Part shown: positions 2-9,541 of the stretch, one piece after another
How positions within the stretch are numbered: position 1 is the stretch's first letter
Layout of the letters: each line of letters begins with the position of its first letter
Source of the DNA: a bacterium
Lineage (GTDB): Bacteria > SM23-31 > JAUVVT01
Assembly (NCBI GenBank): GCA_030616165.1
Contig: JAUWXV010000144.1
Span: 1 to 9,541 of the forward strand
Length of the DNA: 9,541 bases
Direction of reading: 5' to 3'
Notes under the pieces: generated by a model
What the model saw: the letters and a program-made list of their open reading frames with translations, nothing else
What the model was told of the DNA's origin: nothing
Databases searched by the model: none
Translations under genes and position numbers: made by a program

Positions 2-934
2 CCAAGTATGCAGTTTCCAAAAAAAGTATTTTCAAAAGTGGAATTAGATGGAAAGAAATACTTAAGTTCTGGAAAAGAAGATTTATTTGATGGTAATAAT
101 TATTTATGTGCACCGATTATAGTTATAGGAGAGGAAAGAGGTAAATTGTGTATAGGTTATACTGAAGATTTACCTTTTATAGAAATGTTTGAACAAAAAC
201 TTATTGGTGGATATGCTGAAAGATTGGGAAAGATTATTAACAGAAGAGAAACGGAGAAAGCTTTAAGAGAATCAGAAGAAAAGTTCCGAACTTTTATGGA
301 AACTGCAAGTGATTTAATGCACATTACAGATAAAGATGGAAATCTTACTTATGTGAACGAAGCAATGGCAAAGACTTTAGGATATACTAAAGAAGAGATG
401 ATTGGAATGAATGTTACTCAACTATTAACTAAAGAAATGGTGGAAAAACACTATGAATCCTTATGGAAAGAATTGACCACAAAAGGGAGTTTTAGTTTTG
501 AACCCACTTGGGTAACAAAAGGTGGAAAAGAAATTTACGGTGAAATAAATGTTATTGCCATTTATGATAGAAATGGTGAGTATGCAGGAAGTAGAGGGAT
601 ACTTCGTGACACCACCGAACGAAGACAATTGGAAGAGGAGCGAATTAAATCGAGCAAACTTGAGGCAATAAATAATTTGATTGTAACACTAAACCATGAA
701 ATGAACCAATCCCTTTCTGTTATCATTTCATATGCATATTACATAATGGAGAAAGCAGAAAAGGAAAGTCAATTATATAAAGGCGTAAAATTAATCCACG
801 AAGAAGCATGGAAAATATCAAATCTGGTGAAGAAGATTAGTAAATTAAAAGAAATAAAAATTTCTGAATACTCAAAGGGAACAAAAATGTTAGATTTGAG
901 TGATACTGATAAGAAGGATAAAGATGAAGGATAA
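2..934 (+). CDS. PAS-domain sensor with HisKA-like dimerisation domain and no ATPase domain (5'-partial)
   Basis: Signal-transduction protein, probably cytoplasmic in the part seen. The frame is open to the window edge and the first ATG (position 8) has no Shine-Dalgarno, so the gene very likely starts upstream. Counting from that ATG: residues about 30-78 resemble the tail of a GAF domain; a linker helix with the typical ALRESEEKF leads into a PAS domain (about 89-206, ending in RDTTERR); then comes a HisKA-like helical hairpin with an H-box LNHEMNQ, putative phospho-acceptor His230. The protein stops about 78 residues after that His, ending in a GTKMLDL stretch and a charged tail. No N, G1 or G2 boxes of a HATPase_c domain are present, and the next gene begins at once, so there is no room for a frameshifted one. 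It overlaps the response regulator by 11 nt, so the two are presumably co-transcribed and functional partners. It may act as a phosphotransfer or scaffold protein instead of an autokinase. Confidence 0.85.
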   Translation, partial: PSMQFPKKVFSKVELDGKKYLSSGKEDLFDGNNYLCAPIIVIGEERGKLCIGYTEDLPFIEMFEQKLIGGYAERLGKIINRRETEKALRESEEKFRTFMETASDLMHITDKDGNLTYVNEAMAKTLGYTKEEMIGMNVTQLLTKEMVEKHYESLWKELTTKGSFSFEPTWVTKGGKEIYGEINVIAIYDRNGEYAGSRGILRDTTERRQLEEERIKSSKLEAINNLIVTLNHEMNQSLSVIISYAYYIMEKAEKESQLYKGVKLIHEEAWKISNLVKKISKLKEIKISEYSKGTKMLDLSDTDKKDKDEG

Positions 935-1927: not shown

Positions 1928-2863
1928 ATGACCTCCTCAAAGGATTTTTTCTCCACAGGAGATGCCTCGAGGTTGCTTGGAATCTCGAGAGCAACTGTAT
2001 CCCGCATGTTTGATAAAGGAATTTTGCACGGCAAGAAGAATCCTATTACTGGAAAACGTAACATCAGCCGATATAGCCTCGTAGCTTTCATGAAGCAACA
2101 CAACATTTCCCGAGCCAACATAATCATTGAAAAGAAGAGGATACTACTTGTAAGTTCCGATGAGGCCTTGGTGTCCCTTGTGCATAAAACTTTTGCTGAT
2201 GACGAACGAATTAAGATAAAAGAGGTTACATTCGGTTGCGATGCCCTCATTTTGAGTTCGAAAAGAACTCCTGATCTGATTCTTATCGATGAAGAACTTC
2301 CCGACATCTCCTGTGCCGAAGTTGTCAAGTCCCTCAAGAGAATAGAAGAATTAAAAAATATTAAGATTCTATGCTTCTTAAAATCAGACATAGCCAGTAA
2401 TCTTCTTAAATTGGGAGTCAATGAATGTATTATGAAGGATGCTCTCGATAAGGTCGATCTGATAAGAAGAGTCAATTTACTTATGAACATTCCTGAATCT
2501 CGGTTTACTACTTATCCTTTACCCGATAAAGAAAAACGCAGATGGCCCAGAATTACAATTAACATTCCAGCAAATGTCAGGGTATATAATGTGAATAAAC
2601 CTAACCTTTATAACCCAGGTAAAGGTATTATTGAAAACATAAGCTTAGGCGGTGCATATCTTACTAAAGTTCAGCTATCCAATGGTAGTATCCCTGGTGA
2701 TACTTTCAGATTCCTATTGGAAGTCAACCAGCCCCTCATGAAGAACTGGAAAGCCGAATCCAAGGTACTTCGACTCCAGTTCGATGGAGACACGACAGCA
2801 GGTATCAAATTCGTGAATATATCAAAGGAGAACGAGAATAAAATATTGGAGATGTTCAATTAA
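1928..2863 (+). CDS. HTH-receiver-PilZ fusion regulator
   Basis: Three domains occur in 311 aa. Residues about 6-60 form an excisionase/MerR-like winged HTH (FFSTGDASRLLGISRATVSR, then a basic wing with GKRNISRYSL). Residues about 70-188 are receiver-like: D78 in the first acidic pocket, phospho-acceptor D121 in LILIDEELPD and K170 are kept, but one of the paired acidic residues is Ser77, the switch Thr/Ser position reads LCFLK, and the Pro after the lysine is Asp. Residues about 203-311 are a PilZ domain with both c-di-GMP motifs: R204xxxR208 (RRWPR) and N237xSxxG242 (NISLGG). The protein is thus predicted to bind DNA under control of c-di-GMP and possibly phosphorylation. ATG 1928 is preceded by AAAAAGGA at about 10 nt. 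It has its own promoter candidate and is convergent with the surface-protein genes. The target genes are unknown. Confidence 0.88.
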   Translation: MTSSKDFFSTGDASRLLGISRATVSRMFDKGILHGKKNPITGKRNISRYSLVAFMKQHNISRANIIIEKKRILLVSSDEALVSLVHKTFADDERIKIKEVTFGCDALILSSKRTPDLILIDEELPDISCAEVVKSLKRIEELKNIKILCFLKSDIASNLLKLGVNECIMKDALDKVDLIRRVNLLMNIPESRFTTYPLPDKEKRRWPRITINIPANVRVYNVNKPNLYNPGKGIIENISLGGAYLTKVQLSNGSIPGDTFRFLLEVNQPLMKNWKAESKVLRLQFDGDTTAGIKFVNISKENENKILEMFN

Positions 2864-4409: not shown

Positions 4410-6602
4410 TTACCTTACAACCACGAATTTTACGAAATGTGTATTGCCAGTTGCATTACCTTCTGCATTATTTTCTTCAATGAGTGCAATATAAATCCCA
4501 CTTACGATAAGCTGGCCTGTTTCAGTGACTGAATGTTCATAAGTTAAATCTCCCCATGCTTGATCACCAGATCCATCGGTATGCTCCAGGGTCTTGACTA
4601 AATCCCCGCTTTCACTGTAAATCTTGATGGTGCAGTATCCAGGTATATCCAAAAACATTATTTTATCCGGCTCACCAACATATTCCAAAGCACCTATATT
4701 GAACGGGTTAGGAACAACCCTGATGTCGTCTAACGAGGTCCCGGGTATTCTTGTCAGGTATGCCGCACGAGAAGTCATATTAAGATGTCTTCCGCTCTCA
4801 AGGCTCTCTATTTTACCATTCACATCGGCGATATTTCCTACCCCGTCATCAAATGCAGATACATAATAATAATATCCCTGTCCGCGCTTTGCAGCAATAT
4901 CGTCATAACTATGAGTAAGAGCATTTGCGGCGCCCTGTCCACATTCAAAAATAAGTTCCCACAAACCTTGCAGTTTATCATCGATTACTTTGGGTCCCGG
5001 ATTTCCTATAGCCCTATAAACCCTGTAGCCGGCAAAATCAGATGCAGATTCGGATTCGTTACCCCACGATATCTCTACCCTATCGGGCCTGGAGTTTACC
5101 TCTATGGATGGAGGCGGCGGTGCGATTGGAACCTCGTAACCGTTATCAAAGTTACGTTTTACATACCCTGCCCACTTAAAAAGCGTATCCCTGCCTGTAA
5201 ATACCCAGCAGTTTTTAGCCCAGTTGTTATACTCAGACGATTTGTCGTCTGCAGCATAAAGTTCCGGATAATTTATATATTGAGGGGACATGTTATCGGT
5301 AACACCAAATACCATTCCCGGCGGGGGTTCAATATCTATTTTATTAACCCATTTGTTACCTACATCAAATCCGATTTCAGGCGAAATAACTCCTAATAAA
5401 TCTGCCCAGACTATTCGAATATTCTCTCCGGGTCCTAATTGGTAAGGTCCGCAGGAGGTCCAACTTTTTCCACGCCCAGCGAAACCAAGGTCCTTTGTAA
5501 ATTTAACCCGGTCTTCCATTCTAACCGTATGGTGTGTCCCGGGATATGTTTCCTCTTGCGGTATTTGCGGCGTCCCGAAGAGGCCTGCTTCACCGATACT
5601 CATTAACTCGTACACTAGAAGATGCTCATCCGGAGTCCTCAAGTTTGCCTGGTGCTTGGCAGGGAGCCATTCAGGATGGCCTACACCGGTCATCTGTGGT
5701 TGAGTTATGTCATCAGTTTCATCAGTGGGAGATTTGTCAACATGAAGATGGGACTCGCCGTCATATCGTGCATCTCCGAGAAATCCATGTCTCGTATGAG
5801 GAGCGCCAGTGTCATCGTATTTTGCCGTCAGCCTTCTCGCGGAATAAGAATATACCATTCTCAGACTATCCCCGGGATATTCTCCATAGGCACTAAAAAA
5901 GTGTTCTGGTCTCCAAGAACTCCGCCCACCAGATCCACGAGGTCTGGTTTCTCTCATAAAGTAGAGGTCGTTTAAGGTCTGGGTCGGAAGTTCGACTTCA
6001 TCATCAAGGTCTAAATTTCCCGTATTTGTGAATGTCCAGTCCCATATAGCGTAATCATCATGATTATACTGACTCCAGGCAAGTACTCTTTGATTAATAT
6101 CAATCCCAATCTGTGTCCTTATAAATGATTCTATCATTACGTCCGCAGTTCCTGGAATTTTATCGGGGGCTACTTCATCGCCCATCCTGGGGAAGGGGTC
6201 ATCTAACCTGTAGCCATCAACAGTAATTGTAGGAGGCTGGTATCTAAAATACCTGCGAAGAGTTATACCCTCATCATCCGGTAAAGGCATCGTGTTATAT
6301 ACTTCATCAGCACTGGCTGTGGCATTATTAGCTATCCTTACCGGATAATCGACACCATTTTCATCTTTCCAGTTCTTGGAAGCAAGATGGTATCCATTAC
6401 AACTATATATGCCGTCTCTCCAATTGTCATAATAAGTATACTCAAACCGGTGACTACCTGCTACTTCACCCTGGTCACCGGAATCAACTATCTTAAAGCG
6501 TACATTCCCTATTCTTATATGCCTGAAAACATTAGCATAAACGGATTGATAAGCGAACAGGGAAAGTATCGTAAATAAGAGCAAATAATATACTTTTTTC
6601 AT
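4410..6602 (-). CDS. Large exported protein with Fn3-like module and type IX-like C-terminal sorting domain
   Basis: Predicted surface or secreted protein, 730 aa from the ATG at 6602, which GAGGAG precedes by 7 nt; a GTG at 6617 overlaps that site and is rejected as a start. The signal peptide MKKVYYLLLFTILSLFAYQS ends near VYA|NV (residue 23). Residues about 24-490 are rich in Trp, Tyr, Asp and Gly and match no family I can name. Residues about 495-590 look like a fibronectin type III module (strands VEISW, YRVYRA, YYYYVSAFD). Residues about 627-730 form a domain beginning VVPNPFN, with IKIYSESGDLVKTLE and SGIYIALIEE, the pattern of type IX secretion type A sorting domains common in FCB bacteria. 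The gene lies between a TonB-dependent receptor and a PorV-like barrel, which fits surface display. Its ligand or enzymatic activity cannot be told from the sequence. Confidence 0.87.
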   Translation of the reverse strand: MKKVYYLLLFTILSLFAYQSVYANVFRHIRIGNVRFKIVDSGDQGEVAGSHRFEYTYYDNWRDGIYSCNGYHLASKNWKDENGVDYPVRIANNATASADEVYNTMPLPDDEGITLRRYFRYQPPTITVDGYRLDDPFPRMGDEVAPDKIPGTADVMIESFIRTQIGIDINQRVLAWSQYNHDDYAIWDWTFTNTGNLDLDDEVELPTQTLNDLYFMRETRPRGSGGRSSWRPEHFFSAYGEYPGDSLRMVYSYSARRLTAKYDDTGAPHTRHGFLGDARYDGESHLHVDKSPTDETDDITQPQMTGVGHPEWLPAKHQANLRTPDEHLLVYELMSIGEAGLFGTPQIPQEETYPGTHHTVRMEDRVKFTKDLGFAGRGKSWTSCGPYQLGPGENIRIVWADLLGVISPEIGFDVGNKWVNKIDIEPPPGMVFGVTDNMSPQYINYPELYAADDKSSEYNNWAKNCWVFTGRDTLFKWAGYVKRNFDNGYEVPIAPPPPSIEVNSRPDRVEISWGNESESASDFAGYRVYRAIGNPGPKVIDDKLQGLWELIFECGQGAANALTHSYDDIAAKRGQGYYYYVSAFDDGVGNIADVNGKIESLESGRHLNMTSRAAYLTRIPGTSLDDIRVVPNPFNIGALEYVGEPDKIMFLDIPGYCTIKIYSESGDLVKTLEHTDGSGDQAWGDLTYEHSVTETGQLIVSGIYIALIEENNAEGNATGNTHFVKFVVVR

Positions 6603-6872
6603 AATTGTACTCCTCACTTTGTTTATATGTTATGTCAGAAATAGATTTTTTGATTTTAACTATTGCTGTATTTGTTTCTCTGTCATTCCCCCCGCAACTG
6701 CGGGGGAAATCCATTCTTCATTATATTGTCATTATCGTATCAAAACCGAAATAGATTCCTGCTTTCGCAGGAATGACAGTTATTTAAAATCATGAATGAC
6801 AGTTACTCAAAACATTTTTTAATAGTTTTTAATAAAAATTTTGACATTGCCTTCTTTATTCAGTTTTCCCTT
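6603..6872 (-). other. Intergenic gap between receptor and exported-protein genes
   Basis: The 270-bp gap holds the repeat pair at 6680-6805 and AT-rich flanks with a tandem TTTTTAATA motif near 6825-6843. No intrinsic terminator follows the receptor stop in minus-strand reading: neither hairpin is followed by a T-run. Read-through from the receptor gene is therefore plausible, though a separate promoter near the minus-strand TATAAT (6725-6720) is possible. Confidence 0.45.
6680..6805. repeat. Pair of inverted REP/MITE-like hairpins with direct repeats
   Basis: CTGTCATTCC (6680-6689) and its complement GGAATGACAG (6770-6779) bound a 100-bp element. Each end runs into a hairpin: CCCCCGC/GCGGGGG with loop AACT (6689-6706) and ATTCCTGC/GCAGGAAT with loop TTTC (6755-6774). 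The GAATGACAGTTA at the right end recurs at 6794-6805, so part of the unit was duplicated. GGAATGACA next to a GC-rich hairpin is the form of dispersed palindromic repeats seen in many bacterial genomes. It lies between the receptor gene and the exported protein gene. A minus-strand TATAAT (6725-6720) falls inside the element, without a matching -35. Confidence 0.7.
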
Positions 6873-9541
6873 TTAAAAATCGATTTTTAATCCGAAAAAG
6901 ACGTACCTTTGATTTGTAAATGTAAATAGGTCGCGATTCGGCATGTCTATATAAGGCTTATCAGTACCGGGACCTCCAACATCTCCCGGTTTATCGTTTC
7001 CAGAAACATAACCTGCGTTCAGATATTCTTCACCCTCATACATAGGCAGGTGCAGTGATTCAAAATAGTCGTTCCTATCGTCACTATCCAAAAAACCTCT
7101 TGTAGCGAAACGTTTTATATTAAACAAATTATTGACATCCGCAAAGACTTGAACGGAATATTTTCCAAATCTCATCCTCTTACTAAATCTTGCATCGACA
7201 TTATTAGAACTTTTATACTGCAGATTTCTATCTAATTCGTAAGTACTTAACGGGTCCCACGTATAGTAGGAACCTGCCCTCCAACTATAAAGTGCTGACA
7301 AGTGAATATCGCCGATGGGCTTTATTCCAGCCACCGTCGGTCCAAAATCTCCTGGAGTCCTGAAATTAATATTGGCACGCAGTAAGGGTCTGGCAAGTGG
7401 TCTCTCCTGAAACGGATCCTGCAGTCCATATCTTGCCTGCTCTCTCGGATCCTCATAGTAGTGTTCTCGTCCAATATATCCTTCAGTGGATACCATATAG
7501 TTATAATTAAGCCATCCAGTGATAAACCGCCCAAAACGCTTTTCAAGTCTAAACTCAAATCCTCTTATATCTTCATAATGATTGTTTTCAGTAGTCTCGT
7601 AATCAACCAATCCATCAAAATCCGTATACCACACGTCGCCTGTTTGAGCAGTCACATCCTTGTAATAACCAGAAAGATGAACCAGGAACAGGTTACGGAC
7701 ATTGTATTCGACTCCTAACTCATAAGAGACAGTTTTTGGCAAATCTGCAGATGGGTTACCTATAAACTCAATTCCTCCTACCCGGGCTATTTGTCCAAAG
7801 TCAATATGGTACATATCGTGAGTTCCAGCCATTGAATAAAAATGGCCATAATTAAAATAGAGTTTGGCATTTTCAGAGATTGGATGAGATACCCCTAAAC
7901 GGGGGCTAATTTTCAGGTGACCTTTTGCTTTTTCTTGTGGTGCTTGTTCAACGAAAACATCTTTGTATTGTTTTGTAAAATATTCGGAATATCTATCGAC
8001 AGTGTACCAGTCACAATTTGGGTCATTGTAATCAAGTCTTATGCCAAAATTGGTAATCATTCCCTCAAACTCAAGTTTGTCCTGTATATAAGCACCACCG
8101 CGTAATGGAACTTGAGCCCAAACATTCTCAAAACTGCCATGTTCCTGCCCATGCGCCACATGGTCGACGTCATATTTAATATTATCATAGTTAAACATAA
8201 AACCAGCCTTTACCTGGTTATACTTATCGACCTGGCTGGTTATATCAAACTTAAGATTGACAGTGTTTATCTCACCGTTATCCATATTTAAATACTCGAT
8301 GTGAGCGGGATGAAAACGACCCCATCCTTCAGGAAGAGGTACCCACCAGGCTCCATACGGCGTCTCATCAACGGGTGTACTGCCAAAACTTGTAATTGTA
8401 GTTCTATCTCTCATTCTATTAAAGCCGCTGTCCCTTTCCATACTGCGAGTATGAGAGATTCTAATATTATAAAATGTTCTGGGACTCAAAACATGGTCAA
8501 AAGCAATACCAGTCACATTCCGAATCAACTTAATCGGCGTGTCTGTCCAGGGCAAGTATAAATTATTGTCGGGAATTCCCGCGCTTGCACGACGTAATAT
8601 TTCATCGCCGTCATCGATGGTATTTCCATGCGTATTAAGTGTATTAGTCTCTCCATACAATCCCTCGAGGGTTAATTTCATAGATTGAGATAGACGGGAT
8701 GTCACCTTTAAATGAAAATTCTCTTCAACAAAGTAATCTCTGTTAGAGGGAAGGGCAAACATTTCGTAATTAGTTCTATAAGAAGCAAAAAAGCTCAGGT
8801 TGCCCAGATATTTACCAATATAAGGGACTGGACCTCCAAAACTCATATCCATATTCCAGTCAGGCTTATCAGCGTATGTTAACTCTGTCTGGCCAAGTGC
8901 TCCACTTCCTTCAAGGGCATGCCGCCATAAAAATATATCTCTGCACTCTTCAGGAGTTCTGTTATTAATTGCGATTTCGTCTTCTAAAAGCATTTCAGAA
9001 TAAGCATTCCATCCCCTAAATTCAGGATGTTGTTTCTGTGTATACTCATCCCATGTTCCGTTCTCGGTTCCGACCCACATAACACCGGGGTCAAGATAGG
9101 GCCTCAAATACCAACTATTAGGATTTGTAATTTTTACATCAGCATGTTTTAAACGAGCAGGGCTAACCCTGAAATCGAATGAACCATGATATATACTCGG
9201 AGAACCTTCTTTGGTAACAATGTTAATCAGTCCGGAACGAACATTACCATACTCAGCATTAAAGCCTCCCTTGATAATGTTGAGTTCCCTCACAGCGCTG
9301 AGATTAACCATCATCATAGGTCTATTTTCTCTGTTATCCACGACCGTCAATCCATTCATAATAAACCCGGTCTGGTCTAATCCTCCACCTCGAATGTTAT
9401 CACCTATAATTCCAGCCTGCAGACTAATATATTGATTGATATCCGTAACAAGCGGGACTTCCAGTATTTGCTCAGCGTCGGCAACAATATGGCTTGCCGA
9501 AATATCCATTGGAATGATTTCTCTCTCGGCAGTTACTGTAA
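6873..9541 (-). CDS. TonB-dependent outer membrane receptor (5'-partial)
   Basis: Outer membrane active transporter driven by TonB-ExbBD. At least 888 residues lie in the window. The frame is open to the edge and reads TVTAEREIIP before the first in-window Met (9509), so that Met is internal and the signal peptide, probably with a carboxypeptidase-regulatory-like domain, lies outside. Counting from that Met, the plug domain is clear: IRGGGLDQTGFIMNG at about 39-53, then VRELNIIKGGFNAEYGN and SGLINIVTKEG by residue 102. The remainder is a long series of amphipathic beta-strands with tyrosine-rich loops, ending in YVFFGLKIDF, an aromatic C-terminus as expected for a barrel. No SusD-like partner is seen downstream; the next gene, 270 nt on, is the exported protein. 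The substrate cannot be predicted. Confidence 0.93.
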   Translation of the reverse strand, partial: TVTAEREIIPMDISASHIVADAEQILEVPLVTDINQYISLQAGIIGDNIRGGGLDQTGFIMNGLTVVDNRENRPMMMVNLSAVRELNIIKGGFNAEYGNVRSGLINIVTKEGSPSIYHGSFDFRVSPARLKHADVKITNPNSWYLRPYLDPGVMWVGTENGTWDEYTQKQHPEFRGWNAYSEMLLEDEIAINNRTPEECRDIFLWRHALEGSGALGQTELTYADKPDWNMDMSFGGPVPYIGKYLGNLSFFASYRTNYEMFALPSNRDYFVEENFHLKVTSRLSQSMKLTLEGLYGETNTLNTHGNTIDDGDEILRRASAGIPDNNLYLPWTDTPIKLIRNVTGIAFDHVLSPRTFYNIRISHTRSMERDSGFNRMRDRTTITSFGSTPVDETPYGAWWVPLPEGWGRFHPAHIEYLNMDNGEINTVNLKFDITSQVDKYNQVKAGFMFNYDNIKYDVDHVAHGQEHGSFENVWAQVPLRGGAYIQDKLEFEGMITNFGIRLDYNDPNCDWYTVDRYSEYFTKQYKDVFVEQAPQEKAKGHLKISPRLGVSHPISENAKLYFNYGHFYSMAGTHDMYHIDFGQIARVGGIEFIGNPSADLPKTVSYELGVEYNVRNLFLVHLSGYYKDVTAQTGDVWYTDFDGLVDYETTENNHYEDIRGFEFRLEKRFGRFITGWLNYNYMVSTEGYIGREHYYEDPREQARYGLQDPFQERPLARPLLRANINFRTPGDFGPTVAGIKPIGDIHLSALYSWRAGSYYTWDPLSTYELDRNLQYKSSNNVDARFSKRMRFGKYSVQVFADVNNLFNIKRFATRGFLDSDDRNDYFESLHLPMYEGEEYLNAGYVSGNDKPGDVGGPGTDKPYIDMPNRDLFTFTNQRYVFFGLKIDF

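Follow-up and report, generated by a model that had tools for sequence, protein, structure and literature searches.

A 2025 review states that a canonical helix-turn-helix (HTH) is used by most transcription regulators responding to c-di-GMP, whereas MrkH, a PilZ regulator, has a novel DNA-binding domain (PMC12564702). MrkH, from Klebsiella pneumoniae, is a PilZ transcription activator without an HTH (PMC3161979). VpsT and FsnR are proteins of the receiver-HTH (REC-HTH) type that bind c-di-GMP (PMC12564702, PMC7288161). A search of the open-access full-text literature for a PilZ domain joined to an HTH_17 or excisionase domain returned nothing relevant. Here we analyse a bacterial protein in which an HTH_17 domain, a degenerate receiver and a PilZ domain occur in one chain, and we lean towards reading it as a DNA-binding regulator, gated by c-di-GMP, that controls surface-polysaccharide genes.

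Results

The window, meaning the whole 9,541-nt stretch of DNA that was analysed, is an entire contig of a 3.74-Mb host assembly of 343 contigs. The gene is flanked by a receiver gene and, in convergent orientation, a PorV-family gene. Its open reading frame is complete, with an ATG start and a Shine-Dalgarno-like AAGGAAA directly 5' (about 1914-1920), and encodes the following domains:

1928-2863, + strand: HTH_17-degenerate receiver-PilZ protein of 311 aa (open reading frame and Pfam)
1949-2101, + strand: HTH_17 domain of the MerR/excisionase type, residues 8-58 (Pfam; low dN/dS against the paralogue)
2141-2473, + strand: receiver domain, degenerate, residues 72-182 (Pfam and alignment)
2531-2854, + strand: PilZ domain, residues 202-309 (Pfam, homologues and fold model)

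The Pfam matches were to HTH_17 (PF12728; E 2.4e-6, 28.1 bits against a cut-off of 27), Response_reg (PF00072; E 8.7e-9, 36 bits against 30.2) and PilZ (PF07238; E 9.1e-6, a modest 26.4 bits against 22.5). The original prediction had placed an HTH, a receiver and a PilZ domain in one 311-aa chain, and the profile search it called for found both the PilZ domain at 202-309 and HTH_17 at 8-58, with all three domains exceeding their cut-offs. The residues it had named, D121, K170, R204, R208, N237, S239 and G242, are all present; it had overlooked that the receiver carries S76-S77 instead of D-D.

Elsewhere in the window, 2-934 (+) encodes a PAS-HisKA protein whose frame is open at the contig edge. 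It stops about 30 residues past the HisKA match, lacks a HATPase domain and overlaps a single-receiver gene at 900-1295. On the other strand are a 735-aa protein without a Pfam family and a TonB-plug receptor (4410-6617 (-) and 6873-9539 (-)); a second, similar pair is found on another contig, C222 (L072 394-2556 and 2589-5570).

The combination of HTH and receiver is common and the three-domain protein is rare, being found in two genomes in the sets sampled. The host genome encodes one paralogue, 83% identical to the window protein, and three two-domain HTH-REC proteins. Among 386 genomes sampled across bacteria, one (G149) encodes two REC-PilZ relatives without an HTH. A search of the phylum of that genome recovered a congener, the Candidatus Latescibacterota MAG G392, with a three-domain homologue and one REC-PilZ protein. 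No more HTH-REC-PilZ proteins were found in a further 385 and 397 genomes among the roughly five candidates scored per genome in these large searches; the sampled sets overlap in part. In 375 of the 397 genomes a match covered the HTH_17 domain and the receiver, and among the matches listed none covered the PilZ part. In these 375 of the 397 genomes (the sampled set being G448-G842, around G277) a two-domain HTH_17-REC gene occurs once per genome and is thus a near-universal regulator in that group. A search of plasmids for close homologues gave no match, as did a contig search with the single window protein, and with the three-domain alignment the Latescibacterota MAG was the only genome matched. 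That the architecture is uncommon, as originally suggested, is thus borne out, with two genomes only among the four sampled sets.

Within the Latescibacterota homologue the HTH_17 match scores 18.6 bits, below the cut-off, and most HTH residues are shared. The REC-PilZ relatives begin near the last HTH helix in the alignment, a start position consistent with loss of the HTH. Since only three three-domain sequences were found, in two genomes, and two of these are recent paralogues, the neighbourhood evidence amounts to two loci. The Latescibacterota three-domain homologue adjoins convergent glycan genes (inositol-phosphatase family, WbqC, GT2, sulfotransferase and LPG_synthase_TM), and one HTH-less REC-PilZ relative adjoins three HD_5 (HD-GYP-type) genes. 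In the MAG the REC-PilZ gene runs divergently to two others, an HTH-REC gene and a single-receiver gene (L043 526-1128 and 131-529 (-), 1435-2235 (+)).

The PilZ domain retains both of its canonical motifs:

2537-2551, + strand: RxxxR motif, residues 204-208, with R204 and R208 invariant in six homologues
2636-2653, + strand: NxSxxG motif, residues 237-242 (N237, S239, G242), with N or D, S and G kept in six homologues

All six family members match PF07238 at E <= 0.1, and four of the six homologues exceed the cut-off or were matched in the whole-genome search. Residues 187-311, predicted with AF2 (five models, no templates), gave a beta-barrel and a C-terminal helix at low confidence (pLDDT 55), and the top structural matches of this low-confidence model were PilZ domains at Z 6-8. 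The best were BcsA (5ej1/4p00, Z 8.0/7.7) and the PilZ domain of CesA (4i86, Z 7.7), followed by MapZ, MotI, MrkH (5ejl) and YcgR, with unrelated entries ranking lower. Many of the PilZ chains matched in this way are c-di-GMP-bound. A PilZ profile run against PDB sequences retrieved no PilZ chain and only chance matches to Hfq. The assignment is supported beyond a single modest score by the family-wide PF07238 matches and the conserved motifs, together with the fold matches of the low-confidence model, and we infer that the domain would bind c-di-GMP at RxxxR and NxSxxG.

The host very probably contains c-di-GMP, judging by its gene content. Two GGDEF genes have GGEEF with RxxD upstream of it. 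HD_5 lies above the cut-off at three loci, two of which are fragments, maybe of one gene or parts of genes. EAL was not found in the host genome. Two other host genes encode longer proteins with a C-terminal PilZ domain.

We considered whether the PilZ domain might instead serve protein or DNA contact without c-di-GMP, or whether c-di-GMP might tune an output other than transcription, with the HTH acting as an anchor on DNA. Non-canonical PilZ domains do act in contacts, as in PilZ with FimX and the N-terminal domain of PlzA (PMC10333796), and the existence of HTH-less REC-PilZ relatives means that PilZ in this family needs no HTH. However, the canonical motifs are intact in all six members, unlike in non-binding PilZ domains, and the host has both cyclases and HD-GYP-type genes. 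We therefore hold this explanation to be unlikely, while giving it some weight.

The receiver has lost its phosphorylation pocket, as seen in the receiver alignment:

2153-2158, + strand: S76-S77, replacing the acidic pair (CheY D12/D13 position)
2288-2290, + strand: D121, the phospho-acceptor position, retained
2435-2437, + strand: K170, retained; the next residue is D171 and not the conserved Pro

The acidic pair is absent from all six members of the REC-PilZ family, its position reading S-S in the window protein, T-S in the paralogue and T-T, T-R, S-P and S-C in the other homologues, and D-D or E-D is kept in 16/16 receivers used for comparison (14 from HTH-REC proteins, two stand-alone). 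The conserved Thr/Ser, which is L151 in the window protein, is lost in five of the six and the K-P motif in every one. The six form one clade (support 0.999), so the acidic pair may have been lost just once. Every one of the six nevertheless retains D121 and K170, which makes a structural role for both likely. Whole-protein AF2 from two sequences modelled the receiver fold (pLDDT about 72-88 over residues 71-190, except 101-110); the HTH and PilZ domains were not modelled with confidence in the same run.

Phosphorylation of a receiver requires Mg2+ bound by the acidic pair, and with this pair lost phosphorylation is an unlikely input for the window receiver. Could the protein still be an ordinary two-component regulator, in which a histidine kinase (such as the one encoded upstream) phosphorylates D121 and PilZ provides another input? 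The retention of D121 and K170 in all six homologues would fit, as would the PAS-HisKA and receiver genes upstream in the window. However, the acidic pair and K-P are lost in 6/6 and the conserved Thr/Ser in 5/6. The upstream HisKA protein ends without an ATPase domain, and its gene overlaps the receiver gene beside it and does not adjoin the paralogue. We consider this very unlikely. The original prediction had named c-di-GMP, and perhaps phosphorylation, as the signal: the first part is supported in that the motifs are intact, the host has turnover enzymes and c-di-GMP is the probable input, and the second is not supported, both acidic-pocket residues being lost in 6/6.

It is also highly improbable that the degenerate receiver itself senses c-di-GMP or another ligand, in the manner of VpsT or the ShkA pseudoreceiver, with PilZ secondary. 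Binding of c-di-GMP is known both for pseudoreceivers and for REC-HTH proteins (PMC7288161), but the W[F/L/M][T/S]R motif of VpsT is absent from the window protein, whose only Trp residues, W206 and W274, are both in PilZ with none in the receiver, and the intact PilZ motif set provides a simpler site.

The paralogue lies on contig C237 of the host genome (L016:3132-4070 (-)), divergent from an exopolysaccharide export operon that encodes Poly_export/SLBB, Wzz/GNVR, an AAA_31 ATPase, a small protein that matches no Pfam family, Bac_transf and Wzy_C. A 143-aa protein inside this operon (L016:8884-9315) has no Pfam match and by eye resembles a degenerate GGDEF domain. Between window gene and paralogue dN/dS is 0.31, indicating purifying selection. 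Constraint is strongest in the HTH part (dN/dS 0.11, with 95% identity over residues 1-60), so the two copies probably recognise DNA sites of one kind. The PilZ part is less constrained than the HTH part (dN/dS 0.36), and the PilZ domains of the two copies may be tuned differently.

The similarity extends upstream of the gene:

1327-1368, - strand: remnant of the start of a polysaccharide export gene (MKLFHKTRIGQLM...), 39/42 nt identical to the intact gene
1369-1927, no strand: duplicated non-coding region, homologous to the whole C237 intergenic region (sequence comparison)
1743-1771, + strand: candidate promoter, TTGACA-17-TACATT, a consensus match only, with the -35 exactly kept in the paralogue

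Identity to the divergent promoter region of C237 is 78% over the distal part (1381-1735) and 84% over the proximal part (1736-1927), with one long insertion in C237 relative to the window. The export-gene remnant comprises the first 13 codons; beyond them the frame departs from the intact gene, and it ends after 29 codons. As the window still carries the operon promoter region and these codons, its copy is a duplicate exported from the C237 locus; the simplest history is a copying event that took the regulator out of the polysaccharide locus along with its divergent promoter and the extreme 5' end of the export gene. Although the duplication did break off the neighbouring export gene, it is highly improbable that the window copy is a non-functional duplicate: the frame is open, all motifs are retained and dN/dS is 0.31 overall and 0.11 in the HTH.

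Promoter-like sites in the upstream region are no more numerous than in shuffles, and conservation of the proximal region beyond that of synonymous sites was not significant (p 0.27). A riboswitch in this long conserved region was considered and rejected, with no Rfam match. Two similar direct repeats of 24 nt occur upstream of the gene at 1682-1705 and 1782-1805, 100 bp apart, with a GCAGAT core kept in the paralogue, and may represent an operator. The motif TNTGCAGATNTRAAT is common to both paralogues, with two direct copies upstream in each. It did not hold up as a shared operator candidate: in a genome-wide scan the other exact matches lay within ordinary genes, so it is not a regulon marker.

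Discussion

The best reading of these sequences is that the window regulator evolved from an HTH-REC response regulator. A fuller history, in which an HTH-REC two-component regulator gained PilZ, lost the phosphorylation pocket and became c-di-GMP-gated through a silent receiver, with some relatives dropping the HTH, is plausible and is put forward tentatively.

In the c-di-GMP-gated regulator that we favour, the HTH would bind a site in the shared intergenic region, and the receiver, no longer phosphorylated, would remain folded and serve for dimerisation or as a linker. Binding of c-di-GMP at RxxxR and NxSxxG would change the arrangement of the two HTHs in a receiver-held dimer, which would alter DNA binding and switch the polysaccharide operon, and probably also the regulator's own gene. 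As the operon is gone beside the window copy, this copy would act in trans or on itself. The paralogue at the exopolysaccharide operon supplies the likely target, and the pair, one member at the operon and the other exported with the promoter region, offers a concrete candidate DNA sequence on which the regulator may act. If this reading is correct, a phosphorylation-dependent regulator has been rewired to a diffusible messenger within a single chain.

How does the window protein compare with known regulators? The two-domain HTH_17-REC proteins, also present in the host genome, have an identical HTH-linker-receiver order; they differ in keeping the D-D/E-D pair and in ending after the receiver, with no PilZ. 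VpsT and FsnR similarly combine a receiver and an HTH with c-di-GMP input and matrix or motility genes as output. However, VpsT binds c-di-GMP in its receiver and its HTH is C-terminal, whereas the window protein has an N-terminal HTH_17 and a PilZ domain. BrlR, from descriptions of it, pairs a MerR-type HTH with a c-di-GMP response, but binds the ligand outside any PilZ (GyrI-like domain; PMC12564702). PlzA of Borrelia burgdorferi is a DNA/RNA-binding protein with a c-di-GMP-binding PilZ domain, but is an xPilZ-PilZ tandem without HTH or receiver (PMC10333796). MrkH resembles the window protein in its RxxxR/NxSxxG-bearing PilZ domain and, if our reading holds, in regulating a surface structure through DNA binding; its structure (5ejl) aligned to our low-confidence PilZ model over 113 residues (Z 6.4, rmsd 4.4). 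In contrast to MrkH, the window protein joins a canonical HTH_17 to a single PilZ through a degenerate receiver. On its sequence features we would file it with the c-di-GMP-responsive transcription regulators, a known class, in which a classical HTH and a canonical PilZ in one protein would, if our reading is correct, fill a gap beside MrkH.
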